Under the pieces are notes generated by a model. That model ran no database searches. It saw only the letters and a list, made by a program, of their open reading frames with translations, and had not been told where the DNA came from. Made by a program: the position numbers and the translations under genes. Shown here piece by piece: positions 5,561-33,611 of a stretch of 33,847 bases of DNA (its first letter is position 1; every line of letters begins with the position of its first letter). Origin of the DNA: Desulfobacteraceae bacterium. GTDB lineage: Bacteria; Desulfobacterota; DSM-4660; Desulfatiglandales; Desulfatiglandaceae. The DNA lies in contig JAUWMR010000048.1 in NCBI GenBank assembly GCA_030613055.1, positions 1-33,847 of the forward strand, given 5' to 3'.

Positions 5561-5585
5561 AATCTCGACGTGTCGAGATTTTATC
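5556..5585 (+). repeat. 30-base perfect palindrome between the cassette and pseB
   Basis: GATAAAATCTCGAC (5556-5569) is followed after GT by its exact reverse complement (5572-5585). The stem includes the stop codon of the nucleotidyltransferase gene and ends 23 bases before the pseB ATG. There is no T-run, so a simple terminator is unlikely. It could be an operator, an mRNA hairpin affecting pseB translation, or a boundary mark of the cassette. Confidence 0.7.
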
Positions 5586-5608
5586 AAGCGAAGCGATGGA
5601 GTGAAACG

Positions 5609-6601: not shown

Positions 6602-6614
6602 TATTATTTCATCA

Positions 6615-7310
6615 ATGTCAAAGCGACTCTGTGTAATTCCAGCTCGCGGTGGTTCAAAAAGATTGCCGAGAAAAAACATCCTTTCATTTATGGGAAGGCC
6701 AATTATCCATTATACTATTGAGGCTGCGAAAGACTGTGGCCTTTTTGACCGGATTATAGTCAGTACTGAAGATGAAGAAATAGCTAAAGTAGTTCGAGAT
6801 ACAAATGCTGAAGTGTTGTCACGACCTCCGGGGCTGGCTACAGATGATTCTACAGTAGTTGAAGTCTGCTTGCATGTTTTGGATTGGCTCTGGCAGGATG
6901 GTTTTGTGCCTGATTTTTTGTGCTGTCTATATGCTACAGCTCCGATGCGGACCGCAGAAGATATCAAAAATTCCTTTGAGTTAATGTTATCAAAAAATGC
7001 TACATCAGTAATGGCTGTGACCCATTATCCGATTCCAGCGTGGTGGGCGATGAAACAGGATGAACATGGTCATCTAAGTTTTGTATGGCCGGAGTTTATG
7101 GAAAAATGCGAAAAGGAAATTCCTGAAATGGTTGTGGATAACGGGTCTACATATTGGGCACAAACAAAAATATTTCTCAAAGAAAAATCGTTTTATACAT
7201 CGCGATTAGCCGGTTATGCCATGCCTTTTGAAAGATCGATAGATATTGACACGCCGACTGATCTTAAATTAGCCACATATTTAGCCAGTATTATAGAAAA
7301 GGAATCCTGA
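6615..7310 (+). CDS. pseF: Pseudaminic acid cytidylyltransferase-type CMP transferase
   Basis: Activates a nonulosonic acid with CTP to give the CMP-sugar used by glycosyltransferases. The 231-residue protein has the nucleotide-binding PARGGSKRLPRKN motif near residues 9-21 and CCLYATAPM, which resembles the CCIYATAPF of PseF more than NeuA. It is the only CMP-sugar synthetase in the window, so it may serve the products of all three NeuB-type synthases or only one of them. Its stop codon overlaps the next start (TGATG). PseF against NeuA/LegF is a judgement from short motifs and from the pseB/pseC/pseG context. Confidence 0.85.
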   Translation: MSKRLCVIPARGGSKRLPRKNILSFMGRPIIHYTIEAAKDCGLFDRIIVSTEDEEIAKVVRDTNAEVLSRPPGLATDDSTVVEVCLHVLDWLWQDGFVPDFLCCLYATAPMRTAEDIKNSFELMLSKNATSVMAVTHYPIPAWWAMKQDEHGHLSFVWPEFMEKCEKEIPEMVVDNGSTYWAQTKIFLKEKSFYTSRLAGYAMPFERSIDIDTPTDLKLATYLASIIEKES

Positions 7311-8350: not shown

Positions 8351-8369
8351 GGATGCGAAATAGAATAAG

Positions 8370-9668: not shown

Positions 9669-10729
9669 AGCGGTCATACATCCTTATGAGGGTTGACGGA
9701 GGCGCTCGTGTGGGCATAGGACACATCATGCGCTGCCTTGCTTTAGCCCAGGCCCTAAAAACAAAAAATCATGAGCCAATATTCATAACTAGACCGACCG
9801 CCAAACCCTTACTCAAGCGGTTGACTGATGATGGTTTTAAATACTTATTTTTAAAAGAGGACGCATCTGTTGAAGATGATGCAGCGGAGGTTGTCAGGAT
9901 AGCCAAAAACATTGATGCAGACTGGGTTGTTACTGATGGCTATCAATTTCACACCGAGTACCAGAGATCTATAAAATCAGCAGGGTTTTCTCTTTGCTGC
10001 ATTGATGATATTGCAAAATATTATTTTGTCTCAGACGTGGTATTAAATCAGAATTTGGGTGCTGAATATTGCTTTAGTTATTCTCATGAACCATATTGCC
10101 GCCTTCTTTTAGGAAACAAATATGTCATGTTGCGACGGGAGTTTTTGGATTTCAAAAAGCAGCAAAGGACATTTTCGAGAACCGCCAGCAGAATCCTGGT
10201 AACATTGGGAGGGAGCGACCCTAATAACCAAACTTTAAAAGTACTTCAGGCTTTGAAAAGATTAAAAGGATTTTCCTCAGATGTGAAAGTAGTAGTTGGT
10301 GGAACTAATCCTAACATTGCATCTTTGGAGATTTACCTCAAAGAATTACCTTTTGATGCAAAGTTATTTAAAGATGTCAATAACATATCTTCTCTGATGA
10401 TGTGGGCAGATATAGCGATTAGTGCCGGAGGTTCTACTTGTTGGGAAATGGCATATTTGGGCCTTCCAAATATAATTCTGGTATTAGCTGAGAACCAGAT
10501 TCCGGTTGCAGAGCAATTAGAAAAGAAAGGGGTCTCTATAAATTTAGGATGGTGGGAAGATGTTAAGGAAGAAAATATTGTCGATTGTCTTAGTATTCTT
10601 ATTAATAATTCTGAAAGAAGGGAAAAAATGAGTCTCATTGGGCGACAACTGGTAGATGGTTATGGTACACAGCGGGTTGTTGCGTGTTTAGAAGATTTTA
10701 AAAACTCCAGATACAGTGATAAAAGATAG
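9665..10729 (+). CDS. pseG: UDP-2,4-diacetamido-2,4,6-trideoxy-altropyranose hydrolase (PseG)
   Basis: PseG removes UDP from the 2,4-diacetamido sugar to give the free hexose that the synthase condenses with phosphoenolpyruvate. The N-terminal RVDGGARVGIGHIMRCLALA (9-28) is the PseG signature, with the catalytic histidine in GIGH. The GT-B-like C-terminal half carries TLGGSDPNNQT and a later SAGGSTCWEMAYLGLP, which contacts UDP. Length (354 residues) is normal. It overlaps the aminotransferase by four bases and is followed two bases later by a PIG-L deacetylase. No PseH (GNAT acetyltransferase) is present, so the preceding acetylation must be done elsewhere or by another acyltransferase here. 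Confidence 0.9.
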   Translation: MKRSYILMRVDGGARVGIGHIMRCLALAQALKTKNHEPIFITRPTAKPLLKRLTDDGFKYLFLKEDASVEDDAAEVVRIAKNIDADWVVTDGYQFHTEYQRSIKSAGFSLCCIDDIAKYYFVSDVVLNQNLGAEYCFSYSHEPYCRLLLGNKYVMLRREFLDFKKQQRTFSRTASRILVTLGGSDPNNQTLKVLQALKRLKGFSSDVKVVVGGTNPNIASLEIYLKELPFDAKLFKDVNNISSLMMWADIAISAGGSTCWEMAYLGLPNIILVLAENQIPVAEQLEKKGVSINLGWWEDVKEENIVDCLSILINNSERREKMSLIGRQLVDGYGTQRVVACLEDFKNSRYSDKR

Positions 10730-10731
10730 AT

Positions 10732-11421
10732 ATGAGTGAAAATATTCTCATAATAGCAGCTCACCCAGACGATGAAGTCCTTGGGTGCGGCGGGACCATA
10801 GCGCGACATGTGTCAGAAGGCGATCAGGTATATATTTTGATCCTCGCAGAAGGAATTACCTCCCGTGATCCTGTTAGAGGAAACAGCAAGCAAAGCAATG
10901 AGTTAAAGGCTATTAAAAATCAGGCGCAAGAAGTGGCAAAACTTCTGGGAGCCGTATCCGTTAAATTAAATAATTTTCCTGATAATCGGATGGATAGCGT
11001 AGATCTTCTTGAAGTAATAAAGGTGATAGAGGACGAAATTCAACTGGTTAAGCCAAACATTGTTTATGCCCATTATGCTGGCGATCTCAACGTTGATCAC
11101 AGGGTTACGGCGCAAGCGGTAATTACTGCTCTCCGGCCCTCGAGGGAATCTTCAGTATCCGCAATATACGCATTCGAAATTCTCTCTTCTACAGAATGGA
11201 CTTTTGGCGTGACAGGACCAGGTTTTAGGCCAAATCACTTTGTAGATATTACACCATATTTTGAAAAAAAGATCTCAGCGATGAATCTTTATATATCGGA
11301 AATGGAATCGCATCCCCATCCAAGATCTGTAGAGGGCATAAAGACCTTGGCGATGAGAAGGGGCAGCCAGGCCGGATTAGAAATTGCTGAAGGATTTGAA
11401 TTAATACGTTCAGTAATTTGA
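10732..11421 (+). CDS. PIG-L/LmbE family N-deacetylase
   Basis: A 229-residue zinc-dependent deacetylase. The metal site AHPDDE is at residues 10-15 and the second histidine lies in GDLNVDHR. These enzymes remove N-acetyl groups from amino sugars. Two bases separate it from pseG. It may free an amino group of the nonulosonic acid or its precursor so that another acyl or methyl group can be added, which fits the acyl- and methyltransferases downstream. A decayed second PIG-L copy lies at 17578-18038 and shares the SSTEW and HPRSVE-type motifs. The substrate is inferred. Confidence 0.87.
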   Translation: MSENILIIAAHPDDEVLGCGGTIARHVSEGDQVYILILAEGITSRDPVRGNSKQSNELKAIKNQAQEVAKLLGAVSVKLNNFPDNRMDSVDLLEVIKVIEDEIQLVKPNIVYAHYAGDLNVDHRVTAQAVITALRPSRESSVSAIYAFEILSSTEWTFGVTGPGFRPNHFVDITPYFEKKISAMNLYISEMESHPHPRSVEGIKTLAMRRGSQAGLEIAEGFELIRSVI

Positions 11422-11440
11422 TAATGAAAGTCCACTGATT

Positions 11441-12490
11441 ATGAAAGAAATCAAGATCGGTAATAAAATAGTTGGAGGAAAAAACCCAGTTTATATTATT
11501 GCAGAAGCTGGGATAAACCATAATGGTGATCTAAAATTGGCAAAGGAGATGATTGAAGTAGCTAAAGAGAGTGGCGTTGATGCAATTAAGTTCCAGTTAT
11601 TCAAGGCATCTGATGTTATTCAGGACAAGAAGGAGATCTATGAATATGAGTCCCAAGGAAAGATCTTCCGAGAATCACAATATGAGATGTTTAAGCGCTA
11701 TGAGCTCTCCGGGGAAGATATGAATTGTATTGCTGATTATTGCAGAAAGAAAGATATAGTTTTCTTTGCCACCCCTCAAAACATCTCTGATCTTAAGGTG
11801 CTTTTAGAAATAGGAGTTCCAGCAATAAAGGTTGGTTCAGATGATCTAACACATATTGAAATGTTGAAAGAATATGCATCCCATGGCCTTCCTCTGATTC
11901 TCTCGACAGGTATGGCCTATTTATCTGAAATCGATGAAGCCCTGCAAGCGGTCATGCCTATTAATGAGAAAATTGTCTTGCTCCATTGTGTCTCTATGTA
12001 TCCAGCGGCCTTTAAGGATGCAAATATGATCAAAATCCAGAGTTTAAGTAAGATTTATTCAAACGTGATAATTGGTTTTTCTGACCATACTCTTGGCACT
12101 ACCGCAGGAATTATGGCGGTGACTTTAGGTGCCAAGGTGTATGAGAGGCATTTTACATTGGATAAGAATCTATATGGTCCGGACCATCGGTTTTCAGTGG
12201 ATTTTAAGGAACTGAAAACACTGGTCAGGCAAATACGTGAGGCGGAAGAAGCATTAGGCAGCCCGGAATTGAAGCCAACAAAGACAGAAGAAGGAATGCG
12301 TCTCCTGTGCCGTCGTAGTATTGTTGCTGAACGTGACATTAATATTAATGAAATTATATCCAACGACAATTTGTCCTTCCGTAGACCGGGCAAAGGAATT
12401 CCGCCTAAATATATGCCATTCCTCCTTAATAGAAAGACTAAAAGATCGATAAAAAAGGGGGAGGTAATTCTTCTGGAAGATGTTTATTAA
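11441..12490 (+). CDS. Nonulosonic acid synthase of the NeuB/LegI type (copy 1)
   Basis: Condenses phosphoenolpyruvate with a hexosamine-derived aldose to make a nine-carbon acid. The 349-residue protein has AEAGINHNG (21-29), STGMA (155-159), metal histidines H182 (LLHC) and H216 (GFSDHT), and RHFTLDK..GPDH (236-249), followed by a C-terminal SAF/antifreeze-like domain. These motifs are those of NeuB/LegI. The PseI-type SGNHNG, LLKCTS and GG-D-S motifs are missing. Its position after pseG makes it the most likely synthase for the PseB-C-G product, a mismatch worth noting. Confidence 0.88.
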   Translation: MKEIKIGNKIVGGKNPVYIIAEAGINHNGDLKLAKEMIEVAKESGVDAIKFQLFKASDVIQDKKEIYEYESQGKIFRESQYEMFKRYELSGEDMNCIADYCRKKDIVFFATPQNISDLKVLLEIGVPAIKVGSDDLTHIEMLKEYASHGLPLILSTGMAYLSEIDEALQAVMPINEKIVLLHCVSMYPAAFKDANMIKIQSLSKIYSNVIIGFSDHTLGTTAGIMAVTLGAKVYERHFTLDKNLYGPDHRFSVDFKELKTLVRQIREAEEALGSPELKPTKTEEGMRLLCRRSIVAERDININEIISNDNLSFRRPGKGIPPKYMPFLLNRKTKRSIKKGEVILLEDVY

Positions 12491-18071: not shown

Positions 18072-19655
18072 ATGAACACTCAGACAACGCTTCCAACCGA
18101 CATTAATTCCTTGGCGAGTATCGGTATCGAGTGCTTGGGCGAATTGCCCTGGCCTGTGTCCGATGAAGAGTATTTTACGCTGATGCGTGGCTATCGTGAC
18201 GCCTTTGAGGAGGCCCTTTTGAGCCTTGATCCTGAGCATCAGGGCGTTCTTTTGGCGGATTTCTCTTACATAGCGCTTTTAGCCCAGGTATCGCACGCCG
18301 AGGCTGTCAAAGTCAGGGTGCGGAAAATGGGAGGACGTGTAGAGGTAGGCCGTTTGGCACAATCCGCTTATGACCCCGACTGGCGGGCGCTGGGGAGTAT
18401 TCAATCTCATGACCCTGGGTGGAGCCGAATAGTTTTTAGGCTAAAAGGACTGGCCAAGGATCTGAAGTTCAACGACCACCTGAGTTTATTGAGGAGATGC
18501 ACGGGCAGCGATAGAAAAGCCCTGGGAATAGGTAGCTTCTCCAGGCTCAAAGGCGAATACGTGCGTGAACGAGGAATTTTCGTCCGAAATGTCTATATGC
18601 AAAACCTTTTACCCTCCAGGTGGTCGGACGGTAAGGCCCCGCAGGCACTGACAACGGCGGCTGAAGATATCGTTGATCGCATCGACAATATATTTTCAAG
18701 CAAGTTTGGATTTACTCTCCATCTAGTAGACGCTGTTGCCTGCTGGAAGAACCGCTTAGGAGTGCTTTACACGCTATACGAGGCACTGAGGGACCGTAAA
18801 GGCTTGCCGGACGAGGTCTTGGTCACTGAGGCGGCCAGGCCTCTGCACAAAACCGTTGCTGCGGCTTTCCGCGCCGCTGGCGCCCGGGCTGTGGGCTTTC
18901 ACCACGGCAACTCAATGGGGGGGGTGGCTTGGGACATGGGCTGCTATACTGAACTCTCGGCCTACGACGTATTTGTCTGTCCCACGCGCGCCTGCGCCAA
19001 GGCCTACGCCGACGACTACGCTGCTTGCACAGTGAGCCGACATCTACCTATATCTGTGGTCGCAACGGATTCCACACACTACAAACGGCTGCACCAGTCT
19101 ATGGCCAGTAAAAGTTTGCCCAAGCGCATCGAGAGCGTAATGCTCATGGGCTCTCCCATGAATGCCAACAGATATTATGGCTTCCCGGGCTATTTTTTTT
19201 ACTACCAGATCGCCCTGGAGCTTAAGCTGGTCCACTTGCTGGCATCAAAGGGCTATCGCGTGCTCTATAAAGTCCACCCTGAGTGCATCAACGACGTTTT
19301 GGACCTCATCGGCCCTATCTGTAACGAGGTGTTAGCTGAGCCGTTTGAGAGTTGCTGGGAACGGGCGGATGCTTTCATCTTTAAACAGACCGCTACCACA
19401 ACTTTTGGCTTTGCCCTTTGCACAAACCGGCCCATTGTACTCCTTGACACGGAGCGTTCCTTCTGGAGAGAAGACCACTATGCTTTAATTAAGCGTCGTT
19501 GTCGCATGGTCCCAGCACGTATGGAACATGATGGTGTGACGTTTGATGAGGATGCCTTGATAGAGGTTCTCTCCAGAAAGCCGGAACCACCCGATGATTC
19601 ATACGTGCGGGAATTCATGTATCCAGGCATTAAGGTGGGAAAGGCAAGTTCCTAA
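18072..19655 (+). CDS. Glycosyltransferase-like surface-carbohydrate protein
   Basis: A 527-residue soluble protein without a signal peptide. Its C-terminal half resembles GT-B capsule or CDP-glycerol-type transferases: FHHGNSMGG, YDVFVCPTRA, VLYKVHPE (a lysine and histidine placed as in nucleotide-binding sites of that class), then DAFIFKQTATTTFGFAL and RPIVLLDTE. I do not recognise the N-terminal half. It and the preceding pseudogene are visibly richer in G and C than the flanking genes, which indicates separate acquisition. It is one of the few candidate sugar transferases in the window. The exact sugar and acceptor cannot be stated. Confidence 0.65.
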   Translation: MNTQTTLPTDINSLASIGIECLGELPWPVSDEEYFTLMRGYRDAFEEALLSLDPEHQGVLLADFSYIALLAQVSHAEAVKVRVRKMGGRVEVGRLAQSAYDPDWRALGSIQSHDPGWSRIVFRLKGLAKDLKFNDHLSLLRRCTGSDRKALGIGSFSRLKGEYVRERGIFVRNVYMQNLLPSRWSDGKAPQALTTAAEDIVDRIDNIFSSKFGFTLHLVDAVACWKNRLGVLYTLYEALRDRKGLPDEVLVTEAARPLHKTVAAAFRAAGARAVGFHHGNSMGGVAWDMGCYTELSAYDVFVCPTRACAKAYADDYAACTVSRHLPISVVATDSTHYKRLHQSMASKSLPKRIESVMLMGSPMNANRYYGFPGYFFYYQIALELKLVHLLASKGYRVLYKVHPECINDVLDLIGPICNEVLAEPFESCWERADAFIFKQTATTTFGFALCTNRPIVLLDTERSFWREDHYALIKRRCRMVPARMEHDGVTFDEDALIEVLSRKPEPPDDSYVREFMYPGIKVGKASS

Positions 19656-22620: not shown

Positions 22621-24414
22621 GTGCGAAAAATTATTCAATCCATCCTCTTTTTTCCATCTGTTACAAAATCCAAGATATTTCTTCTTACGGGGATCACGCT
22701 TACCGCTGCCTTTTTTGAGGGCTTTGGTGTTGCAATGCTTTTTCCCATTATGGATTTTATTGAAAAGGGGAAAGACTTTGCTGTGTTAGCAGAGTCCTCC
22801 AGGATGTGGATGTATATCGGAAGGGTCTTTGATCTGTTCTCATTGCCCAAGACTCTTATTGCCCTGATGTTTATTGTTTTCGGATTGCTCATGATCAGGC
22901 AATTGTTTAACTATCTCAAAACAATTTACAGCAGGTGGATTACCGAGTGTATTAATGCTGATATCAGAAGCACGGGTTTTAAATGGTTTGCCAGGGCGGA
23001 GATGCCGTTTTTTGATACACATGGAGTTGGTGAATTGATCAATGTCATGACCGTGGACGGGATAAGGGCTGGGGGTGGCATTTCCAGTTTTTTCACCCTG
23101 CTTTCCGCAATGGTCATTTTTGCCCTGTACTTTGTCTTACTTCTCATTTTATCTCCAGGCATGACAGTATTTGCTATGGTTATTATGGGTTTTGTAGGCC
23201 TTATCCTAAAGTCGCGTATTAAAAAGTCCGGGGAGATAGGGAGCGAGGTCTCAAAGTTTAATAACAGAATTGCCTCTTCCCTAATCGAGAGATTAAATGG
23301 CATAAGACTCCTCATGCTTTCGGCAACGGTAGAAAAAGAGGCATCGTTTATCAGGGGACTCTCTGAAAAGATCAAGATTGACAGTTACCAGCTCAGCAAG
23401 ATAAAGGCCAAGATGGAATTTGTAGTGGACCCCATGGTGATTGTAGCCGGACTCACCATCCTCTATTTTTCCGTCGAAGTATTTCATATGTCTTTAGCCA
23501 AAACGGGTATTTTTATCTTTGTGCTTTTAAGACTAATGCCGTACAGCAGGAATATTTTTTCTGCCAGACAGGTCCTTGCTGGTTTTTCCGGGAGCCTGTT
23601 CAGGGTAAATGATTTGATGAATGAGGCCAGGAAAGCCAGTACGATTAAGGGCGGAATTCTTAAAGAACTGAAATTACATGATGGTATCAGGTTCGAAGAT
23701 GTTTCCTTCTACTATAATCTAAACGACGGTTTTGCATTGAAGAACCTGAAATTTACAATCCCGGCAGGTAAGATGACGGCACTTGTGGGAAGGTCAGGGG
23801 CAGGGAAATCAACACTCATTGACCTGATTCCGCGTCTAAGAGTGCCTTTCGATGGGAAGATAATGATTGATGGTCAATCGATTGAGGATATTGATTTGAC
23901 CACGCTACGGAGGTCCATAGCCTTTGTTACGCAGGAAGGTTTTCTTTTCAATGATACAATTGAGAACAATATCAGATACTGTAAGCCGGAATCCTCAATG
24001 GAAGAGATTATCAAGGTAACAAAAATGGCTTATGCGGACAATTTCATACAGGAGTTTCCGGATGGATACCGGACAATAGTGGGAGAAAGAGGAATAAAGC
24101 TCTCCGGGGGACAAAGGCAGCGGATTATACTTGCAAGGGCGCTGCTTCAGGAGGCATCCATCATTATCCTTGATGAGCCTACAAGCTCCCTTGATTCTGA
24201 ATCGGAACAATACATCCAACGTGCAATGAAAGAGATACGGTCAACAAGAAATATTACCATGATCATTATTGCCCATCGCTTATCCACTATCAAAAGTGCA
24301 GATCAGATTATTGTCTTAGACAAAGGGCAGGTGACAGAGTGCGGGAGCCCGGGTGAACTGATTGATAAGAACAAATGGTATGCCCAAATGGCACGGATGC
24401 AGGCGATGGGATGA
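22621..24414 (+). CDS. ABC transporter, fused membrane and ATPase domains (lipid-linked glycan flippase type)
   Basis: A 597-residue MsbA/PglK-type half transporter in the inner membrane. About six hydrophobic helices lie in residues 1-330 (for example TLIALMFIVFGLLMI and MVIFALYFVLLLIL). The C-terminal ATPase has Walker A GRSGAGKST near 389, signature LSGGQRQR, Walker B IIILDEPTS and the H-loop IIIAHRLS. It is the only transporter in the window, so it probably flips the lipid-linked glycan, or a precursor, across the membrane in place of a Wzx flippase. The start is GTG (22621), right after the MITE-like element, with a weak AAGGA site. Confidence 0.88.
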   Translation: MRKIIQSILFFPSVTKSKIFLLTGITLTAAFFEGFGVAMLFPIMDFIEKGKDFAVLAESSRMWMYIGRVFDLFSLPKTLIALMFIVFGLLMIRQLFNYLKTIYSRWITECINADIRSTGFKWFARAEMPFFDTHGVGELINVMTVDGIRAGGGISSFFTLLSAMVIFALYFVLLLILSPGMTVFAMVIMGFVGLILKSRIKKSGEIGSEVSKFNNRIASSLIERLNGIRLLMLSATVEKEASFIRGLSEKIKIDSYQLSKIKAKMEFVVDPMVIVAGLTILYFSVEVFHMSLAKTGIFIFVLLRLMPYSRNIFSARQVLAGFSGSLFRVNDLMNEARKASTIKGGILKELKLHDGIRFEDVSFYYNLNDGFALKNLKFTIPAGKMTALVGRSGAGKSTLIDLIPRLRVPFDGKIMIDGQSIEDIDLTTLRRSIAFVTQEGFLFNDTIENNIRYCKPESSMEEIIKVTKMAYADNFIQEFPDGYRTIVGERGIKLSGGQRQRIILARALLQEASIIILDEPTSSLDSESEQYIQRAMKEIRSTRNITMIIIAHRLSTIKSADQIIVLDKGQVTECGSPGELIDKNKWYAQMARMQAMG

Positions 24415-24483: not shown

Positions 24484-25533
24484 ATGCGACAGATTATAAT
24501 TAATGGGGAAATTGTCAATGACAATTCTGATTGTTATGTTGTCGCTGAGATAGGCCATAACCATCAGGGGAGTCTGGATACGGCTAAGGAAATGATCAGG
24601 GTGGCCAAGGAGTGTGGTGCAAATGCTGTCAAACTCCAGAAAAGGGATAACAAGTCGCTCTATACAAGAGAAGTCTATAATGCTACTTACAACAATGAAA
24701 ACAGCTATGGGTCCACATATGGCAAACACCGCGAGGCCCTGGAATTTGGAGACCCAGAGTATCGGGTACTCATCGACTATGCCAGGGATCTGGGAATTAC
24801 CTTATTTGCCACCGCGTTTGACTTTAGCAGTGCGGACTTTTTGGCAAGGTTAAATATGCCCGCATTCAAGTTTGCTTCCGGGGATTTAACGAATACGCCA
24901 CTGTTAAAACACGTCGCGCACTTCGGAAAGCCTATGATTGTGAGCACAGGAGGGGGAACATTAGATGATGTGAAACGCGCTTATGATGCTATTATGCCTG
25001 TTAACCCGCAGCTTTGTCTGCTTCACTGCACTGCCGCCTATCCAATATATAACTATGAGGATATGAATTTGCAGGTTATAACTACTTACCGTGAGACATT
25101 TCCGGACGTTGTTATAGGATTGTCTGATCATGAAAGTGGCATCTCTATGGCCTTGGTAGCCTATGTCCTTGGTGCAAGGATCATTGAGAAACATTTTACA
25201 TTGAACCGTTCATGGAAGGGGACAGATCATTCCTTTTCCCTATCCCCAATTGGACTTCGCAGGCTTGTGCGCAATTTACACCGCGCCCGGCTTGCGATAG
25301 GGGACGGAGTAAAGAGGCCGCTGCCCTGTGAAGAGAAACCACTTTATAAAATGTCAAAAAAACTTGTGGCTGCCAGGAATTTGAGTGTGGGAAGTGTTCT
25401 TAGGCCAGAGCATATTGCTCTCAAGTCACCCGGAGATGGGTTGCCACCTTACGAATTATACAACATTGTCGGCAAGCGCCTGACGAGAGGGCTAAAAGAG
25501 GATGAAAATTTATCGTTTGAAGTTGTTGAATAG
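24484..25533 (+). CDS. NeuB-type synthase (copy 3)
   Basis: A 349-residue synthase that should condense phosphoenolpyruvate with an aldose. AEIGHNHQG, FASGDLTN, STGGG, LLHCTAAYP, GLSDHESG and EKHFTLNRSWKGTDHSFS are all in place, including both metal histidines, and a SAF domain follows. Unlike copy 1, the lysine-rich loop reads KLQKRDN and is followed by a long polar insertion (YNATYNNENSYGSTYG). The ATG at 24484 behind GGGGGAC is preferred over 24469. It begins the downstream group of SDR, aldehyde dehydrogenase, transketolase and sugar-acid enzymes, so its acceptor is likely made by them. Confidence 0.88.
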   Translation: MRQIIINGEIVNDNSDCYVVAEIGHNHQGSLDTAKEMIRVAKECGANAVKLQKRDNKSLYTREVYNATYNNENSYGSTYGKHREALEFGDPEYRVLIDYARDLGITLFATAFDFSSADFLARLNMPAFKFASGDLTNTPLLKHVAHFGKPMIVSTGGGTLDDVKRAYDAIMPVNPQLCLLHCTAAYPIYNYEDMNLQVITTYRETFPDVVIGLSDHESGISMALVAYVLGARIIEKHFTLNRSWKGTDHSFSLSPIGLRRLVRNLHRARLAIGDGVKRPLPCEEKPLYKMSKKLVAARNLSVGSVLRPEHIALKSPGDGLPPYELYNIVGKRLTRGLKEDENLSFEVVE

Positions 25534-25595
25534 TGTTTCAGACACATGTCAGGGAATTTTCGGTGCTTTAACGACGAGATGCGCGTAAGGTAAAT

Positions 25596-26408
25596 ATGAT
25601 GCGAGATATTTTCGACGTTCGAGACAGGGTCGTGGTGATTACCGGTGGCCTTGGACAGTTGGGGAGGCAATACTGCCTTGCATTGCTTGAGAGGGGGGGC
25701 AGGGTAGTAGTTCTTGATTTACCCAAAGACCCGGGGATTGAGATTAACAAGTTTGAAAAGGAAAAAAATTTTTTGTATTTTTCCGCGGACGTGACGAATA
25801 AGGCGTCATTAGAGGCAGCCTTGAAAGCACTAATTGGGAAATGGGGCACGCCGCCTCATGCCCTGGTGAACAACGCGGCCCTGGACTCACCGCCTAATTC
25901 ATCTTCAAAGGAAAATGGCCCATTTGAGACATATCCCGGTGAATCGTGGGACAGGGTTATGAATGTAAATGTCAAGGGCGTTTTTTTGACCTGCCAGGTG
26001 ATTGGCGGGGCAATGGCGGAGGCCGGTCGAGGTTCGGTTGTTAACGTTTGCTCCGTATATGGAGTTGTATCTCCTGACCAGCGTATTTACGAATATCGAC
26101 AGCAGGAAGGGAGTGGGTTTTTTAAACCGGTTGCGTATTCGGCATCCAAGTCGGCGCTGCTTAATCTGACGCGATATCTGGCTACCTACTGGGCGCCGAA
26201 AGGTGTGCGAGTTAATACCATCACCTTAGGTGGTGTCTTAAATAACCAGGATGTTGAATTTCTTAGAGGCTACCAGAGCAAAGTACCTCTGGGTCGTATG
26301 GCAAGAGAGGACGAATACAACGGTGCCATCATTTTTTTTGTGTCAGATGCCTCGTCGTATATGACCGGCGCCAATATGATCATTGATGGAGGCTTTACCG
26401 CCTGGTAA
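25596..26408 (+). CDS. Short-chain dehydrogenase/reductase (PtmA-like)
   Basis: A 270-residue classical SDR. The cofactor loop is TGGLGQLG (16-23), NNAA follows, and the catalytic tetrad includes Y181 and K185 (YSASK). The C-terminus MTGANMIIDGGFTAW is typical. It resembles PtmA, an SDR of flagellin legionaminic-acid clusters, and is likely to oxidise or reduce a sugar hydroxyl with NAD(P). AAGG lies before a double ATG, and either codon may be used. The 62-base gap to the NeuB gene contains a small TGTTTCAGACA inverted repeat without other signals. Confidence 0.85.
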   Translation: MMRDIFDVRDRVVVITGGLGQLGRQYCLALLERGGRVVVLDLPKDPGIEINKFEKEKNFLYFSADVTNKASLEAALKALIGKWGTPPHALVNNAALDSPPNSSSKENGPFETYPGESWDRVMNVNVKGVFLTCQVIGGAMAEAGRGSVVNVCSVYGVVSPDQRIYEYRQQEGSGFFKPVAYSASKSALLNLTRYLATYWAPKGVRVNTITLGGVLNNQDVEFLRGYQSKVPLGRMAREDEYNGAIIFFVSDASSYMTGANMIIDGGFTAW

Positions 26409-26445
26409 GATAGAGGAACAGGCGTTAAAAATATGAGAGGCGATA

Positions 26446-27915
26446 ATGAGAAAGATTATACCTGATACTGTATTAAACTGGATCAATGGTAAGGAATGTC
26501 TTTCAAAATCTCAGAAAGAAATTGACAAGTTGAATCCAGCCAACGGAAAGCTATTATGCCGTTTTGTCCGTTCAGGAGAAGACGACATAGAGAAGGCTGC
26601 TAAAGTCGCACTGTCTGCACAACCTGCTTGGGCTGCCACGCCCCCGGTCAAGCGGGGAATGATACTACATGACCTGGCAATGGGAATGAAAGAGCGGCGA
26701 GAGGACATTGCCAGGATTGTGGCTCTGGAAACCGGCAAGTCGCACAAGGAGGCGTTGGGCGAAACGGATGGTGCTATTGCTTTAGGTCTTTTTTTTGCGG
26801 GAGAAGGTCAACGCCTTTATGGCAGGACCACTACAAGTGCTGTGCCCAACAAATATGCAATGACCATACGACAGCCCATAGGAGTGGCGGGCCTTATAAT
26901 TGCGGCGAATACACCCATCGCGAACGTGGCCTGGAAGATCTTTCCTGCCATGATCTGCGGCAATACCGTAATTCTAAAGGCGGCCGAGGATACACCGGCC
27001 ACGGCCTGGATTGTTGGTGTTATTTCCAGGGAAATTGGGCTTCCGCAGGGCGTTTTGAATATCGTGCAGGGAATCGGGGAAGAGGCTGGATCGCCCCTCG
27101 TAGCACATCCGGATGTTGGTGTCATCAGCTTTACGGGTTCCACCGTTGTAGGAAGGATGATTGCTGAAACAGCTGGTAAGAGACTGGCAAAGGTTTCTCT
27201 GGAGTTGGGGGGTAAGAATCCCCTCGTGGTTTGCGATGACGCGGATTTGGACGATGCGGCAAAGTGGGTTATTTTATCTGCCTTCAGTAATGCTGGCCAG
27301 AGGTGCGCCTCTGCAAGCCGTATAATTATTTTTGATGACATTTATGAGATATTTCGAGACAGGTTGCTTGAGGAAACAAAAAAACTCAGGGTTGGCCCCG
27401 ACGACAACGATGATTTTGGCCCCGTTATTAATCAAAGCCAGATTGATAAAATGCTCGCTGCTGTGGAACGGGCAAAGAAAGAGGGGGCAATGGTTCTCAC
27501 TGGTGGTGGACGCATGACTGACCCGGATCATATTGATGGGTTCTATATGGCTCCCACGTTGATAGAGAATGTGGATATGAAGAGCGAAATTTCCACAACT
27601 GAGCTGTTCGGTCCTATAGCATGTCTTTACCGGACCAGGGATTTTGTTATGGCTCTGGATATGGCGAATGATTCCCCCTATGGGCTTACGGCCTGTATCC
27701 ATACAAAAAGCATCCACAGGGCCGTTGAGTTTGCCCAGAAGGTCCAGGCCGGCGTGGTTGTTGTAAACGCGGGTACATACGGGAGCGAACCACATATGCC
27801 CTTTGGGGGATTCAAGCAGTCTGGCAACGGGACGAGGGAACCCGGGACAGAGGCGCTGGATGTCTATTCGGAATTGAAAGATATATATGTTAATATCGAA
27901 CCTTCAAAGCTTTAA
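26446..27915 (+). CDS. NAD(P)-dependent aldehyde dehydrogenase
   Basis: A 489-residue aldehyde dehydrogenase oxidising an aldehyde to its acid. Catalytic C287 lies in GQRCASASR, the general base E253 in LELGGKNP, the cofactor motif FTGSTVVG precedes it, and the C-terminal ELFGPIA and PFGGFKQSGNGTREPG motifs are present. All catalytic parts are intact, and the overall pattern is that of succinate-semialdehyde or betaine-aldehyde-type enzymes. In this setting an aldose or a sugar semialdehyde is the probable substrate, giving a sugar acid for the dehydratase two genes downstream. The substrate is inferred from context. Confidence 0.88.
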   Translation: MRKIIPDTVLNWINGKECLSKSQKEIDKLNPANGKLLCRFVRSGEDDIEKAAKVALSAQPAWAATPPVKRGMILHDLAMGMKERREDIARIVALETGKSHKEALGETDGAIALGLFFAGEGQRLYGRTTTSAVPNKYAMTIRQPIGVAGLIIAANTPIANVAWKIFPAMICGNTVILKAAEDTPATAWIVGVISREIGLPQGVLNIVQGIGEEAGSPLVAHPDVGVISFTGSTVVGRMIAETAGKRLAKVSLELGGKNPLVVCDDADLDDAAKWVILSAFSNAGQRCASASRIIIFDDIYEIFRDRLLEETKKLRVGPDDNDDFGPVINQSQIDKMLAAVERAKKEGAMVLTGGGRMTDPDHIDGFYMAPTLIENVDMKSEISTTELFGPIACLYRTRDFVMALDMANDSPYGLTACIHTKSIHRAVEFAQKVQAGVVVVNAGTYGSEPHMPFGGFKQSGNGTREPGTEALDVYSELKDIYVNIEPSKL

Positions 27916-27981
27916 TGCCCCTTAATGATGAACCGAAGTTTTCCTTATAAACATTCCTGAATTCTGGGTTTATGTAAAACT

Positions 27982-29895
27982 ATGATTTCACTAAACTTGA
28001 TTCCCAGGGAAGAATTTAAGCGAATCTGGCGAAGCAATCTGCCGGATTATGAAAAGCTTGCCCTAATCGCTGATATGTGCCGGGCCAATGCCTTGACTGC
28101 CGTGAAAATCGCGGGTTCCGGTCACCTTGGTTCCAGCCTGAGCGCCATGGATATCGTGGTGTTTCTTTATTATAAAGAGATGAATACGGTTGAACTGGGC
28201 ATAGACCATCCTGACAGAGACATCTATTTTTCATCAAAAGGACATGATGTGCCCGGACTGTACTCAGTGTTCTATTCTTTGGGTATTTTACCAAAGGAAA
28301 AACTGTTGAAACTCAGACGATTAGGTGGGCTGGACGGGCATCCCGATGTTGGCATTCCGGGCATTGAAACCAACTCAGGGTCCCTGGGCATGGGCATCTC
28401 AAAGGGAAAGGGGATGGCCTTTGCGAAACGCCTGGCAGGACGAAAGGGGAGAATATTTGTCCTGACAGGCGACGGGGAACTCCAGGAGGGTCAGATATTT
28501 GAGGGCCTGCAAACAACGGCCCATCAAAGCATCAATAATCTTATAGCCATCGTGGACCATAACAAAGTCCAATCGGACAAGCAGGTTGATGAGATTACCG
28601 GCCTTGGAGAGCTTGAATCAAAGTTCCGGAACTTCGGCTGGTATGTTAGGCGCTGTGACGGGCATGATTTCCGGAAACTTTCTGAGGTCATGTCTGATTT
28701 TTCTGAAATAACCGATCGCCCGAAAATTCTCATTGCCGATACCATCAAAGGCCGCGGCATATCCTTTATGGAACACCCAAAGGCGCTTATTGATGGAGAC
28801 GGTTTGTATCGCTGGCATGCGGGCGCCCCTGATGATCAGGCGTTCACTGCGGGCTACGAAGAGATTATAGATCGCGTAAATAGTCTATTGACTGAGGCGA
28901 ACCTGGCCTCGCTCCGGGTTGAAGACATACCATTAGAAAAGAAAGAAAAAAGCGGCGTGTCCCCGGAATACGTGGCTGATGCCTTCGGAGAGGTGCTCGT
29001 TGAGATTGCTGCGGAACGGAAGGATATGGTGGTTCTGGATGCAGATCTTGCTGCTGACTGTCATATCCGCAATTTTGAAGAAAAATTCCCTGGGCGATTT
29101 ATTGAAAACGGTATTGCGGAACAGGACCTGGTCTCCATGGCGGGCGGTCTGGCCCTTCAGGGCTTTTTGCCGGTGGTAAATTCCTTTGCTGCATTTCTGG
29201 CATCGCGAGCCAACGAACAGATCTACACAAATGCCTGTGAAGGCACAAAGATTATCTATATCTGTCATTATGCCGGCCTTATTCCGGCCGGACCGGGAAA
29301 ATCACATCAAAGTATCCGGGACATCTCTCTTTTCGGCGCCCTGCCTGATTTTGAGATCCTCCAGCCGTGCAATGCCGCCGAAGCAAGGATGGCAGTACGG
29401 TATTGTGTTAACGAAAGCAGGAAAAACTGTGTCCTGCGGCTGATCATTGGTCCATCGCCCCGGATCATCGAACTGCCGCCGGAGTATGAATTCTATCCCG
29501 GCAAAGGCGCGGTCCTTATGGATGGCTGTGACGCTGTGCTATTAGGCTACGGACCTGTTATGCTGCATGAGGCGTTACTGGCCGGTGAAATTCTTCAAAA
29601 GCGGGGTTTCAAACTAAAGGTAGTCAATATGCCATGGCTGAACTATGTGGATGCGGACTGGCTGGCAGAAGTTTTAAAGGGCTGTCAGGAATTATATGTA
29701 ATTGAGGATCACGCTCCTGTGGGTGGTTTGGGAGATAGATTGCTCAATGTAATAGCCTCAGAAGGTCTGCTCCAAAAAATAAAATTTCATTGCATTGGGA
29801 TAGATGGCTTTCCGGCCTGTGGGACACCTGCGGAGGTCCTGAAGTTTCATGGTTTAGACGGCAAAACCTTGGCTAATCGAATTGCCATAAAATAA
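27982..29895 (+). CDS. Transketolase, single chain
   Basis: A 637-residue thiamine-diphosphate enzyme that moves a two-carbon ketol unit between sugars. GSGHLGSSLS gives the substrate histidine, TGDGELQEGQ near 162-171 with the later DHNKVQSD is the cofactor/metal motif, and GIAEQD near 376-381 carries the catalytic glutamate. It is a complete one-piece enzyme, whereas cluster-borne transketolases are often split in two genes. It lies between aldehyde dehydrogenase and an acid-sugar dehydratase. This suggests a biosynthetic chain extension or ketose formation rather than central metabolism, but a housekeeping role cannot be excluded. Confidence 0.9.
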   Translation: MISLNLIPREEFKRIWRSNLPDYEKLALIADMCRANALTAVKIAGSGHLGSSLSAMDIVVFLYYKEMNTVELGIDHPDRDIYFSSKGHDVPGLYSVFYSLGILPKEKLLKLRRLGGLDGHPDVGIPGIETNSGSLGMGISKGKGMAFAKRLAGRKGRIFVLTGDGELQEGQIFEGLQTTAHQSINNLIAIVDHNKVQSDKQVDEITGLGELESKFRNFGWYVRRCDGHDFRKLSEVMSDFSEITDRPKILIADTIKGRGISFMEHPKALIDGDGLYRWHAGAPDDQAFTAGYEEIIDRVNSLLTEANLASLRVEDIPLEKKEKSGVSPEYVADAFGEVLVEIAAERKDMVVLDADLAADCHIRNFEEKFPGRFIENGIAEQDLVSMAGGLALQGFLPVVNSFAAFLASRANEQIYTNACEGTKIIYICHYAGLIPAGPGKSHQSIRDISLFGALPDFEILQPCNAAEARMAVRYCVNESRKNCVLRLIIGPSPRIIELPPEYEFYPGKGAVLMDGCDAVLLGYGPVMLHEALLAGEILQKRGFKLKVVNMPWLNYVDADWLAEVLKGCQELYVIEDHAPVGGLGDRLLNVIASEGLLQKIKFHCIGIDGFPACGTPAEVLKFHGLDGKTLANRIAIK

Positions 29896-29936
29896 TAGAT
29901 GCAGATGGTTTAGAAAAGAATTCACAGGAGACAATA

Positions 29937-31103
29937 ATGAAAATTACTTCTCTTGAGACCTTCACCTGCCAGGCCGGGTGGCGACCTTGGAGCTTTTTAA
30001 AAATTCTTACAGATGAAGGAATAGCCGGCTACAGCGACTGTACAGACTTTCACGGTTCGACTAAGGCGCTGATAGCCGTCATTCAACAGCTTTCAGATAT
30101 ATTAATCGGTCGCAACCCAACCGCCATTGAAAGCATTTATTGGGATTTATTCAGAATAACCAGGCAAAGTACAGGGGGCGTGATACATAAGGCTCTTGCC
30201 GCCATAGAGAATGCATTGTTGGATATAAAAGCAAGGGCATTGGGTATTCCTGTCTATGAATTATTGGGCGGACCGGTTCGTGATCGAATACATTTGTACT
30301 GGTCTCATTGTGGTACGACCAGGCTAAGATCTTCCGAATATTTAGAAAAGAGCTCTATTCAGACCCTCGAAGACATTGCTGCTCTGGGTAAAGAAGTTGA
30401 GGACGCTGGCTTTACGGCACTTAAGACAAATCTAATTATTTTAGGAAAAAAACCCTTCGTCTTGATGCAGGGGTTCAAAGGAGGGATAGGAAGTGCAGAT
30501 AGAAATATAAGCAGGAAAATTTTGCATTCTGTGGAGTCTTTGATCTCCACCTTTCGAGACAGTGTAGGGCAGGATATTGATATTATTCTCGACACGAATA
30601 TGCATTTCAGGTCTGATGGTAATTCTGAACTGGCCAAAATTGTTGCACCCTACAACCTTTGCTGGCTGGAAGTGGATACGCGCCAACCTAAAGCTCTTAG
30701 AAAACTATCAGATCGGGCACCGATGCCATTGGCCTCATGTGAGACGCTTCAGGGCTTACGCGAATACATCCCGTATTTTGAGGAACACGCCGTGGATGTG
30801 TGCATCATTGATGTCCATTGGAACGGTGTTTGGCAATCGAAAAAAATAGCCGATCTTGCCGAAACATATGAAATAAATGTGGCGCCCCACAATCATGGAA
30901 GCCCACTGGCGTCATTGATTACAGCCCATTTTTGTGCTTCTATATCCAATTTAAAGATTATGGAATATGACGTTGATGATGTTCCATGGAGGGATGAAAT
31001 AGTAACAAATCCTCCAATTATAGAAGGCGGGTACATGATTGTACCTAAAGGACCAGGTTGGGGAGCTGAGTTGGATGAGAAAGTTGTCCTGTCTCATTAT
31101 TAA
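29937..31103 (+). CDS. Enolase-superfamily sugar-acid dehydratase (galactonate-dehydratase-like)
   Basis: A 388-residue mandelate racemase/muconate lactonizing family protein. Magnesium ligands are D219 (LDTN), E245 (WLEV) and E269 (CET), and the general acid/base histidine is H318 in APHNHGSP. At the usual K-x-K site it has K163-T-N165, the second lysine replaced by asparagine, as in galactonate dehydratases (K-x-N). It should dehydrate a sugar acid to its 2-keto-3-deoxy form. GGAG lies 10 bases before the start. Together with the aldehyde dehydrogenase upstream, this gives an aldose-to-keto-deoxy-acid route. Confidence 0.85.
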   Translation: MKITSLETFTCQAGWRPWSFLKILTDEGIAGYSDCTDFHGSTKALIAVIQQLSDILIGRNPTAIESIYWDLFRITRQSTGGVIHKALAAIENALLDIKARALGIPVYELLGGPVRDRIHLYWSHCGTTRLRSSEYLEKSSIQTLEDIAALGKEVEDAGFTALKTNLIILGKKPFVLMQGFKGGIGSADRNISRKILHSVESLISTFRDSVGQDIDIILDTNMHFRSDGNSELAKIVAPYNLCWLEVDTRQPKALRKLSDRAPMPLASCETLQGLREYIPYFEEHAVDVCIIDVHWNGVWQSKKIADLAETYEINVAPHNHGSPLASLITAHFCASISNLKIMEYDVDDVPWRDEIVTNPPIIEGGYMIVPKGPGWGAELDEKVVLSHY

Positions 31104-31130
31104 CAGAGGAATACAATAACTAAAAAAACG

Positions 31131-32021
31131 ATGTTTCCGAAAACAATAGCAATTTTGAGCCCGGGAGATATGGGGCATGCCATTGGCACAGTACTACGTG
31201 AAAATGGCCTGAATGTAGTTACCTGCCTAAATGAGAGAGGGGGCGAGACAAAAAGGCTGGCTTTAAAAGCGGGGATCCATGATCTGCCTAATCTGGATGA
31301 ACTTGTTGTTTTAGCTGATTTGATCCTTTCGGTAATTCCTCCTAAAAGTGCCTTTGTGCTGGCTGATAATATATTGAACGCCGTAAAACGAACGGGATCA
31401 AAACCCGTTTTTGCAGAGTGTAACGCCATTTCGCCAAGCTTATCCCGCAAGATAGCTTCGCATTTTATATCAATGAATATCCTTTACATCGATGCCGGAA
31501 TTATCGGTCCACCTCCCACCGTCGGAAAACCAAGCATTTATGTTTCGGGCATGGATACTTCCTGCATGGAAAAACTGCCCGGACTGCACGTCATCCCGCT
31601 TGGGTTTGAGGTCGGCAGAGCTTCTGCTTTAAAAATGTGTTTTTCAGCTTTTAATAAGGGTATCAATGCACTCGCCGCCGCAGTTTTATTCGCGGCAGAA
31701 CGCCTAGACATCTATAGTGAATTGGAGAAAGAGCTGCTAAAGCGCCAACAGGATGTTTTCAAACGCATTGAAAAACAAGTGCCGTTCCTACCGTTGAATG
31801 CAGAAAGATGGGTTGAGGAGATGAAAGAAATTTCCAAAACCATGTTTGATGCAGGATCCATATCCGAATTTCATAATGGTGCCGCTCTTTTATATGAGCT
31901 AATGGCGGCTACACCTTTTTCAAAAGAAGTTCGCGATACCTTTGACAAAACAAGGACAGCACATGAGACGATCCGTGGATTGAAGAGCAGAGAAGCAAAC
32001 TATAAAATAGAAAAAAAGTAA
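31131..32021 (+). CDS. 6-phosphogluconate/beta-hydroxyacid dehydrogenase-like NAD(P) oxidoreductase
   Basis: A 296-residue protein with an N-terminal Rossmann domain (LSPGDMGHAIG, residues 9-19; SVIPPKSA) and a helical C-terminal domain of the DUF1932 kind, as in proteins annotated phosphogluconate dehydrogenase-like. The substrate loop reads DAGIIGPPP. It probably oxidises or reduces a beta-hydroxy acid. It is the last intact gene of the NeuB3 group. The precise substrate is not known from the sequence. Confidence 0.78.
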   Translation: MFPKTIAILSPGDMGHAIGTVLRENGLNVVTCLNERGGETKRLALKAGIHDLPNLDELVVLADLILSVIPPKSAFVLADNILNAVKRTGSKPVFAECNAISPSLSRKIASHFISMNILYIDAGIIGPPPTVGKPSIYVSGMDTSCMEKLPGLHVIPLGFEVGRASALKMCFSAFNKGINALAAAVLFAAERLDIYSELEKELLKRQQDVFKRIEKQVPFLPLNAERWVEEMKEISKTMFDAGSISEFHNGAALLYELMAATPFSKEVRDTFDKTRTAHETIRGLKSREANYKIEKK

Positions 32022-32142: not shown

Positions 32143-32186
32143 GGGGGAATTTCAATCATAGCGCAGGAGATTTGGAAGAAAAAATT

Positions 32187-32612
32187 ATGAGACGCAGCAT
32201 CATTTATTTTCATTCGACGATATGGAATCAATTTTTTTCCGATTTACTTAGATACTTTCAGGATAATGAAAATGCTCAAGTCTTTATAATCTGTGACAAC
32301 CTGACAAAAGATCTTTACGATAAAAATATTGCATTGGGTGCAGAGCCTGTTATTATTCCCGATTTCGACATTAAAGAGACGTGGGAAGATGATCCGGATC
32401 AGGTGGAAGACCTTATAAGATTCATCAGGTCGTGTGAGGATGCATGTGGAAGGTCTATGGGGCGGATTGTTCTGACAGGTGAAAGGACGATCGGCCGAGC
32501 TCTTTCTATAGGCTTTTATTACTGGCCCCAAAATAGTTATCAAAAAGCGTATACAGAAGATAATTCAAAGCCTGAGTCATATACCCTCCGAGACCTTTGC
32601 AGAACCTGCTGA
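32187..32612 (+). pseudogene. 5' part of a glycan-cluster gene truncated by an IS
   Basis: The frame begins RRSIIYFHSTIWNQFFSDLL and continues for about 134 normal residues up to PESYTLR. It then runs into the IS left end at 32590 and stops at 32610-32612. There is no catalytic motif in what remains. The N-terminus and YYWPQNSYQKAY resemble the beginnings of larger capsule or glycosyltransferase-like proteins, but I cannot name the family. The ATG at 32187 has GGAAG before it. A TTG at 32172 would add five residues. The missing 3' part is not in the window. Confidence 0.6.
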
Positions 32613-32838: not shown

Positions 32839-33285
32839 ATGGGATACAAGGAATTGGGTAAAGAGATCAGTTTTGCAGATTTGGCGGTTAGTAAGTCTCT
32901 GGAGCATAATCGCAGCCTCAAGATGATGAATAGGATCAATCAGGTGGTAAAATGGAGGAATGTAGAGGCTTTATTGAGAGAGTACTACGAAGTTGGCACG
33001 AGTAAAGAAGGCGCAGACGCCTATCCACCATTGATGTTATTAAAATGTATGCTGCTCCAGAAATGGTTTCGGATTCCATCAGATCCTGAGCTTGAGAACC
33101 AGATTAATGACAGGATTTCTTTTAAGAAATTTCTGGGACTTCCGCTTGACAAGCCATCCCCTGATCACTCCACATTTTCGAGGTTCCGTAGTCGGTTATC
33201 TAAAGAGGCGATGACTAAGCTGAACAATGAAGTGTTACAAGGATTTGAGAAGAAGGGGTTAAGCATCAATGAAGGGATACCTTCC
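32839..33285 (+). pseudogene. IS5-family transposase, N-terminal fragment
   Basis: About 149 residues of a transposase with the DUF772-type N-terminal domain: YPPLMLLKCMLLQKWF, SDPELENQINDRISFKKFLGL and PDHSTFSRFRSRL. Homology ends at SINEGI. The frame continues to 33372, but that tail is encoded by hairpin-forming sequence and does not look like transposase. None of the DDE catalytic acids, which lie further along, are present, so the fragment is inactive. The strong ribosome site is intact. Confidence 0.85.
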
Positions 33286-33335
33286 GGTTCGTCACATGTT
33301 ATGTGCCATGAACCTACAGGTCATAGAGCTGTAGG
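33286..33335 (+). other. Paired hairpins at the left border of the GIY-YIG insert
   Basis: Two hairpins sit where transposase homology stops. The first has stems GGTTC (33286-33290) with GAACC (33310-33314) and CACAT (33293-33297) with ATGTG (33301-33305). The second is CCTACAG (33313-33319) with CTGTAGG (33329-33335). They share two bases and precede the GIY-YIG start by 16 bases. They may be a folded RNA or end structure of an inserted element. Confidence 0.5.
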
Positions 33336-33350
33336 CGCCCATTTCGCGGT

Positions 33351-33611
33351 ATGTATTCAGTCTACGCAATAAGAAGTCTTACGAATGGACGAGTCTATAT
33401 TGGCCAAACAAAAAATCTTGAGGGTAGGCTTAGGGATCATAACGCAGGCCGCGTTCAGTCAACAAGAAGGGATAAGCCGTGGGTGCTACATGCTTTGCAC
33501 AGGGTGAGTAATCGAAAAGAAGCAATGTTTGTCGAATGGAGAATAAAACGTTCAAGAGGAACACGGCTGAAATGGTTAACGAAAAACCGAGTAGACGATG
33601 ACAGGGTCTAA
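33351..33611 (+). CDS. Small GIY-YIG endonuclease-domain protein
   Basis: An 86-residue stand-alone GIY-YIG (UvrC N-terminal/URI-like) domain. YAIRSLTNGRVYIGQT carries the variant first motif (YAI) and the YIG, R28 in GRLRDHN is the usual catalytic arginine position, and E in AMFVEW is the usual metal-binding glutamate. Such proteins cut DNA as homing or repair nucleases, and many small ones have no known role. It overlaps the non-homologous tail of the transposase frame and lacks a ribosome site. It is located inside the IS, which suggests a passenger or a nested mobile element. Confidence 0.8.
   Translation: MYSVYAIRSLTNGRVYIGQTKNLEGRLRDHNAGRVQSTRRDKPWVLHALHRVSNRKEAMFVEWRIKRSRGTRLKWLTKNRVDDDRV

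Follow-up and report, generated by a model that had tools for sequence, protein, structure and literature searches.

Contig JAUWMR010000048.1 of the assembly GCA_030613055.1, which derives from a Desulfobacteraceae bacterium, was analyzed over its entire length (referred to as the window; its last base is 33847), and this work concerns six adjacent genes on its + strand that combine a NeuB-family sugar synthase with a transketolase (TK). The first gene (24484..25533) encodes NeuB3, a NeuB-family ulosonic acid synthase carrying a SAF domain (Pfam NeuB 259.9 bits, plus SAF), for which an in-frame ATG at 24469 is a possible alternative start. It is followed by a short-chain dehydrogenase/reductase (SDR; 25596..26408; adh_short_C2; Y181/K185), an aldehyde dehydrogenase (ALDH; 26446..27915; Aldedh 507.9 bits; C287/E253) and the TK (27982..29895), which contains all three TK domains, the GDG motif at 163 and E380. 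The last two genes encode an enolase-superfamily sugar-acid dehydratase (29937..31103; MR_MLE N- and C-terminal domains; D219/E245/E269/H318) and a DUF1932/6PGDH-like NAD(P) reductase (31131..32021; DUF1932 and NAD_binding_2). A preliminary description prepared from the letters alone had listed these six intact open reading frames (ORFs) together with their motif residues; all of them are present, and the families assigned to the six proteins with Pfam and NCBIfam profiles agree with that description.

A search with the TK against 395 genomes of the source phylum revealed five other genomes carrying it at 61–68% identity, with the next matches at only 37%. NeuB3, SDR, ALDH and a NeuA-type synthetase adjoin the TK in all five of these unrelated genomes, the dehydratase in one and a DUF1932 protein in none, and at one of the five loci (L025) a KdsC-type phosphatase and a PanE-type reductase belong to the same gene run. 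Within the phylum sample the TK occurs in 6 genomes, NeuB3 in 8 and both together in 6 (hypergeometric p = 5.5e-12); the two NeuB3 genomes without TK reflect contig breaks, one contig stopping inside NeuB3 and the other reading NeuB3-SDR-ALDH before it ends. A collection-wide scan with a TK alignment gave at least 80 loci, which with one Streptomyces locus form the 81 listed loci considered here, a sample in which the relatives are mostly metagenome bins and many contigs are short. They come from Deltaproteobacteria, Chloroflexi, Gammaproteobacteria, Ignavibacteria, Bacteroidales, Actinobacteria, cyanobacteria (Moorena), Parcubacteria, and methanogenic archaea, and the neighbours of their TK include a CMP-synthetase (CMP, cytidine monophosphate) at 56 loci, NeuB at 45, SDR at 42, ALDH at 40 and a KdsC-type phosphatase at 25. 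Chance linkage is very unlikely because NeuB3, SDR, ALDH and TK stand together in five unrelated genomes and because ALDH and NeuB recur at so many of the listed TK loci. Pairwise distances of NeuB3, ALDH and TK moreover co-vary (Mantel r 0.85, 0.68, and 0.57, with organism relatedness not removed). The unit that recurs reads NeuB3–(HAD phosphatase)–SDR–ALDH–CMP-sugar synthetase–transketolase, and we are highly confident that it represents a conserved biosynthetic cassette. The unassigned biosynthetic route with NeuB and TK that the preliminary description had proposed is thus upheld by the conserved linkage, with NeuB3, SDR, ALDH, and TK confirmed as core members, while its list lacked the HAD phosphatase and the CMP-sugar synthetase, which belong to the core elsewhere. 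Its idea that the six genes form one conserved unit was rejected: of the 81 other TK loci listed, 6 carry the dehydratase and none the DUF1932 reductase, and these two genes are an occasional extension of the cassette.

Several loci depart from this arrangement. Standalone TKs of Ignavibacteria were considered as counter-evidence to the linkage and dismissed as such, since the rest of the operon sits elsewhere in the same genome in 9/9 cases, where a SAF-less NeuB is encoded with a phosphatase, an SDR, an aminotransferase and an SpsF-type synthetase (contig ends truncate two of the nine operons). For the Chthonomonas and Fimbriimonadaceae TK loci NeuB3 is likewise located elsewhere. In Moorena (L104, L105, L106, L108) a CMP-synthetase and the TK form a pair with no adjoining NeuB; in the L108 genome a NeuB-type gene and an ALDH of cassette type (70%) lie within 20 kb of the TK. 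A plasmid of Streptomyces sp. NBC_01237 (L030, 16105-19953) carries NeuB3, SDR, and a clamp-less TK beside methyltransferase-like and adenylation-domain-like ORFs and possibly directs a natural product bearing a trimmed sugar acid. A DNA-level search of plasmids gave no match, and protein searches of plasmids returned distant TKs and dehydratases and nothing closer.

The cassette TK is not a housekeeping enzyme. The source genome (G000) encodes a separate full-length TK on another contig, and an ordinary full-length or split TK exists besides the cassette TK in 12/12 other genomes checked; a housekeeping role was rejected because an ordinary TK coexists in every genome examined and because the clamp residues are distinct. 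The preliminary description had named, as the observation that would speak against it, a TK, ALDH and dehydratase that group with housekeeping or catabolic orthologues and do not co-occur with NeuB3 elsewhere; this outcome did not materialise, the cassette TK being found with NeuB3 in 6/6 TK-bearing genomes. We aligned 80 TKs of the family to human TK, whose numbering is used in the following. H77, H110, and E366 are kept in all 80 and H37 is kept wherever this position is covered, and the window TK possesses the thiamine diphosphate motif, the catalytic Glu, and the ketol-binding His residues. The phosphate clamp formed by R318, S345, H416, D424, and R474 is lost in 80/80: R318 is replaced by V/A/T/S (by K in two, by I and P once each), S345 by D in 80/80, H416 by Y/F/L, D424 by P, and R474 by I/S/L, and the window TK reads A/D/Y/I at R318/S345/H416/R474. 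The R/S/H/D/R clamp is kept in housekeeping TKs (one of the ten in this set was unaligned over the clamp region and one gapped at 474), in four other TKs (L021-L024), and in human TK. An E. coli TK carrying R358I/H461S/R520Q shows enhanced formation of tartaric semialdehyde from 5-ketogluconate (PMC12016104). According to our own mapping by motif, E. coli R358/H461/R520 would correspond to human R318/H416/R474, and by this mapping three clamp positions changed in the family TKs are those engineered in E. coli TK. In the Bacteroidota operons L191, L193, L195, L197, and L198 a split TK, encoded by two adjacent genes, lies between SpsF and the aminotransferase; the clamp is lost in the Bacteroidota split TKs too (V/F at 416, N at 424).

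NeuB3 scores below the equivalog cut-offs of the established synthases (NeuB_NnaB 295.5 vs 399.65 bits; PseI 234.4 vs 340.25 bits), as do its paralogues NeuB1 and NeuB2 in the window. Its Ser315 aligns with Arg314 of Neisseria meningitidis NeuB, a residue that positions the N-acetyl group of the substrate and whose replacement in the R314A mutant abolishes activity (PMC6795526). This position is S, T or C in the 42 aligned cassette NeuB copies (39 distinct loci), all of which include that SAF residue; the arginine is kept in NeuB1, NeuB2, and two other NeuBs. Loss of the arginine equivalent makes a substrate without an N-acetyl group likely for the cassette NeuB. The Bacteroidota-type NeuB comprises 297 residues, and its sole Pfam match is the barrel domain. 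Among 296 genomes of the Bacteroidota-side phylum it is present in 8/8 TK-bearing genomes against a background of 111/296 (p = 3e-4), and the same NeuB type occurs at ~60-73% identity in 103 sampled Bacteroidota-side genomes without a single-chain cassette TK. Twelve genomes with NeuB and without the cassette TK comprise six with a split TK in the operon, two with an operon that has no TK there, and four without the aminotransferase; the latter four encode NeuB alone (one), NeuB and phosphatase (two), or these two and the SDR as well (one), and look like a plain keto-deoxynonulosonic acid (Kdn) route. Since NeuB is retained without TK in Bacteroidota, NeuB there is independent of the TK product.

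The best NCBIfam neighbours of the SDR are PRK09186, PRK06114, GolD/DthD, and gluconate 5-dehydrogenase, and in these profiles it is placed near gluconate 5-dehydrogenase and KduD, which both act on the penultimate carbon. Another member of its Pfam family is an SDR involved in the 8-epimerisation of the nonulosonic acid pseudaminic acid (Pse) (PMC12053666). Among the NCBIfam models the ALDH comes closest to alpha-ketoglutaric semialdehyde dehydrogenase, which acts on a keto acid semialdehyde; in the PDB, searched at 1e-100, the ALDH had no match. In the Bacteroidota operons a glutamate-semialdehyde-type aminotransferase takes the place of the ALDH: among the 81 listed loci the ALDH stands beside the TK at 40 and the aminotransferase at 6, and none of these 46 loci has both. 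As oxidation and amination are both common fates of an aldehyde, this mutual replacement fits an aldehyde generated by the TK. One such aminotransferase is encoded in the window as well, though at a distance of 14 kb, in a separate gene cluster for Pse.

The dehydratase has the acid triad D219/E245/E269, the catalytic H318, and a lysine motif K163-T-N, and its closest solved relative is 2oo6. In relatives it is always paired with a PanE-type reductase (6/6 loci) and accompanied by the ALDH at five of the six, the sixth contig beginning at the PanE gene; the pairing with the ALDH fits the model presented below because the dehydratase needs a carboxylate. The suggestion that it makes a 2-keto-3-deoxy acid for NeuB did not hold, given that it is found only as an add-on with a ketoacid reductase. 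Solved relatives of the DUF1932 reductase are of the 2-hydroxyacid dehydrogenase and imine reductase types, and no homologue of it was found beside the other listed TKs; in the window it would replace PanE. Within the phylum, orthologues of the dehydratase also have catabolic-looking genes as neighbours.

From gene content, linkage, the mutual exclusivity of ALDH and aminotransferase, and the residue losses we infer the individual reactions and their order, and we consider it somewhat more probable than not that the cassette trims the NeuB product to a shortened, doubly acidic ulosonic sugar in the following sequence. NeuB3 would join phosphoenolpyruvate (PEP) to a hexose, the best candidate being a hexose 6-phosphate without an amino group (for example mannose 6-phosphate), and so form a C9 ulosonate phosphate of the Kdn type, from which a phosphatase of the KdsC/Kdn-9-phosphate type would then free the C9 ulosonate. 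The SDR is proposed to oxidise the penultimate C8 hydroxyl of this nonulosonate to a ketone, by which the end of the sugar would become HOCH2-CO-CHOH-, the shape of a TK donor. The clamp-less TK would cut between C7 and C8 of the non-phosphorylated 8-keto sugar and transfer the two-carbon ketol unit to an aldehyde serving as acceptor, so that C7 becomes an aldehyde, and the ALDH would oxidise this TK-derived aldehyde to the carboxylate, yielding 3-deoxy-hept-2-ulosaric acid, the skeleton of the plant sugar 3-deoxy-D-lyxo-hept-2-ulosaric acid (Dha). In the Bacteroidota variant the aminotransferase would produce a 7-amine instead of the carboxylate. A NeuA/PseF-type enzyme would make the CMP-sugar of the product. 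In the window, the dehydratase may additionally remove the hydroxyl beside the new carboxylate to give an alpha-keto acid, whose ketone may be reduced by the DUF1932 reductase as a putative substitute for the PanE-type enzyme, with the net loss of one oxygen. The wider proposal, that CMP-activated C7 ulosaric (in Bacteroidota, 7-amino-heptulosonic) sugars are made by a widespread route that is as yet undescribed, that the TKs of two lineages independently lost the clamp to cut a nonulosonic acid side chain, and that the window product is 3,5-dideoxy-heptulosaric acid, is a tentative one, to which we give a little less than an even chance.

A number of observations weigh against this order of events. 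The window contains no phosphatase gene of the cassette type; the sole KdsC homologue of the source genome is distant and lies on contig C4. The window also shares or lacks a dedicated CMP-synthetase, the only CMP-synthetases of the source genome being the PseF/NeuA copy of the Pse cluster (6615..7310, + strand; PseF model 201.4 bits vs a cut-off of 205.7) and a homologue at G000:C89:17204; it is possible that the former activates the cassette product. At six NeuB-SDR loci both the ALDH and the aminotransferase are missing within reach, and a cassette-type ALDH was not found in most of the genomes tested for ALDH, so that the final oxidation is not universal; the cultured carrier Oricola nitratireducens (L097), for instance, yielded no ALDH of this type. 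Loss of the clamp, as read from the alignment, shows an altered substrate of the TK without pointing to which one, and the Bacteroidota split TKs also lack His37, which suggests that their chemistry may differ and perhaps involve another ketol. Finally, the distances of the SDR co-vary weakly with those of the other cassette proteins (Mantel r 0.25 to 0.44, again with organism relatedness not removed).

The same C7 diacid would arise if trimming preceded condensation, the ALDH making a starting six-carbon sugar acid, the SDR and TK acting on it, and NeuB3 joining PEP to the four-carbon aldehyde acid so formed. This order is nearest to the literal tartaric acid precedent, in which 5-ketogluconate is converted to tartaric semialdehyde, it accounts for the same heptulosaric skeleton, and the loss of the Arg314 equivalent is compatible with it too. 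We consider it improbable: the phosphatase would be superfluous, yet it is present at 25 of the 81 listed loci, and that of the Bacteroidota cassette scores best with the Kdn-9-phosphatase model, although below its cut-off; the aminotransferase replacing the ALDH would be left unexplained; and NeuB exists in the 103 Bacteroidota-side genomes without single-chain TK, some of which retain only NeuB and phosphatase.

Closer to the preliminary description is a lengthening of the chain, in which an aldehyde receives two carbons from the TK and the ketose formed is reduced by the SDR, resulting in a higher-carbon acidic sugar. TKs are reversible and run in the lengthening direction in the pentose phosphate pathway, and the gene content would be identical. 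However, lengthening requires an aldehyde on the NeuB product, which no cassette gene would make, it offers no role to the ALDH or the alternative aminotransferase, and the clamp loss removes the usual phosphorylated donors, so that we regard it as unlikely to apply. The higher-carbon product proposed in the preliminary description is accordingly disfavoured, as the clamp loss, the presence of NeuB without TK, and the interchange of ALDH and aminotransferase all fit a TK that acts after NeuB and shortens the chain; nor is its TK supplying a ketose or aldose to NeuB3 in keeping with a lost sugar-phosphate clamp and with a Bacteroidota NeuB present in roughly 100 sampled genomes without this TK. 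Taken together, the findings favour a shortened sugar over a lengthened one.

A third possibility is that NeuB3 makes a known nonulosonic acid, i.e., neuraminic (Neu), legionaminic (Leg), pseudaminic acid or Kdn, and that SDR, ALDH, and TK supply a small acyl or acid decoration. N-acyl decorations of nonulosonic acids exist, and a Pse cluster with PseB, PseC, PseF, and PseG is located in the same window; most loci, however, have no aminotransferase-acyltransferase pair in the cassette, and the absence from NeuB of the arginine that binds the N-acetyl group speaks against an amino sugar able to carry an N-acyl group, which leaves this explanation with a small probability. That catabolic or housekeeping enzymes adjoin a glycan cluster by chance, for which the dehydratase orthologues beside catabolic-looking genes could be quoted, is highly improbable overall and is refuted for NeuB3, SDR, ALDH, and TK by a cassette with NeuB and CMP-synthetase conserved across phyla and by the separate housekeeping TK in every genome examined, while for just the dehydratase and the DUF1932 reductase it is still conceivable.

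The surroundings of the six genes contain further features. An MsbA/HepA-type ABC exporter (22621..24414, + strand) is encoded directly upstream of NeuB3 and probably serves glycan export; a homologue (68%) is likewise located directly 5' of NeuB3 in genome G058. The near-complete Pse cluster (3520-12490) encodes PseC, PseB, PseF, PseG, and NeuB1, and it also includes the glutamate-semialdehyde-type aminotransferase (8370), a Gfo/Idh-like ORF (7310), and a PIG-L deacetylase (10732). Three NeuB paralogues (NeuB1, NeuB2, NeuB3) are found on this single contig. An ORF between PseC and PseB (4880-5560) has no Pfam match at 1e-5 and appears nucleotidyltransferase-like by eye, which is unexpected in a Pse operon. 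A gene at 18072-19655, also without Pfam match at 1e-5, lies in a stretch of 54% G+C (contig ~45%). Near the contig end a DUF772-type transposase fragment (32839-33372) adjoins a 146-aa ORF without Pfam match (32172-32612), and the gene cluster may continue past this insertion element.

The known systems share parts of this cassette. We found no paper joining a transketolase with nonulosonic acid synthesis in the open-access literature, in which a description published in a subscription journal could be missed, and the conserved cassette is apparently undescribed. The Neu, Leg, and Pse pathways resemble it in that a NeuB-type synthase and a CMP-sugar synthetase are encoded in glycan clusters. 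They use 2-acetamido sugars and retain nine carbons, whereas the cassette NeuB has no conserved SAF arginine. The route to Kdn in Bacteroides thetaiotaomicron and Prymnesium parvum shares the NeuB-family synthase and, with the cassette as found at loci elsewhere, the HAD phosphatase and the CMP-synthetase, and it has no amino-sugar step; the cassette adds SDR, TK, and ALDH or aminotransferase to it, and we know of no described Kdn route with these enzymes. Pathways with a Kdn-9-phosphate synthase and phosphatase are known (PMC6200933). For the sequence of penultimate-carbon oxidation, TK cleavage, and semialdehyde oxidation predicted here from genes and residues, the closest parallel is the tartaric acid route via 5-keto-D-gluconate (grape, Gluconobacter, engineered E. 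coli TK), and the cassette encodes together an SDR akin to penultimate-carbon oxidases, a clamp-altered TK, and an ALDH. ALDH-type enzymes were proposed to complete the route from 5-ketogluconate to tartaric acid (PMC12016104, PMC7970118). This route differs in using an aldonic acid rather than a NeuB product, in having no established natural TK, and in not being a nucleotide-sugar pathway. With Dha the predicted product has the C7 diacid skeleton in common, the likeness being one of skeleton alone; the biosynthetic genes and the nucleotide form of Dha are unknown (PMC12168206). If the proposed trimming after NeuB is true, carbon-carbon cleavage shortens sialic-acid-like sugars inside a nucleotide-sugar pathway, which is not described in the literature searchable here, an unrecognised acidic sugar would be expected on the surfaces of many uncultured bacteria and some archaea, and the cassette would be the first source of candidate genes for a sugar of the Dha type, even with regard to plants. 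Housekeeping and split TKs have the domains, the thiamine diphosphate motif, the catalytic glutamate, and the ketol-binding histidines in common with the cassette TK, while the clamp residues are all replaced in the latter; under the proposed pathway the cassette enzymes would be natural TKs that already carry the changes which engineers introduced for non-phosphorylated substrates.

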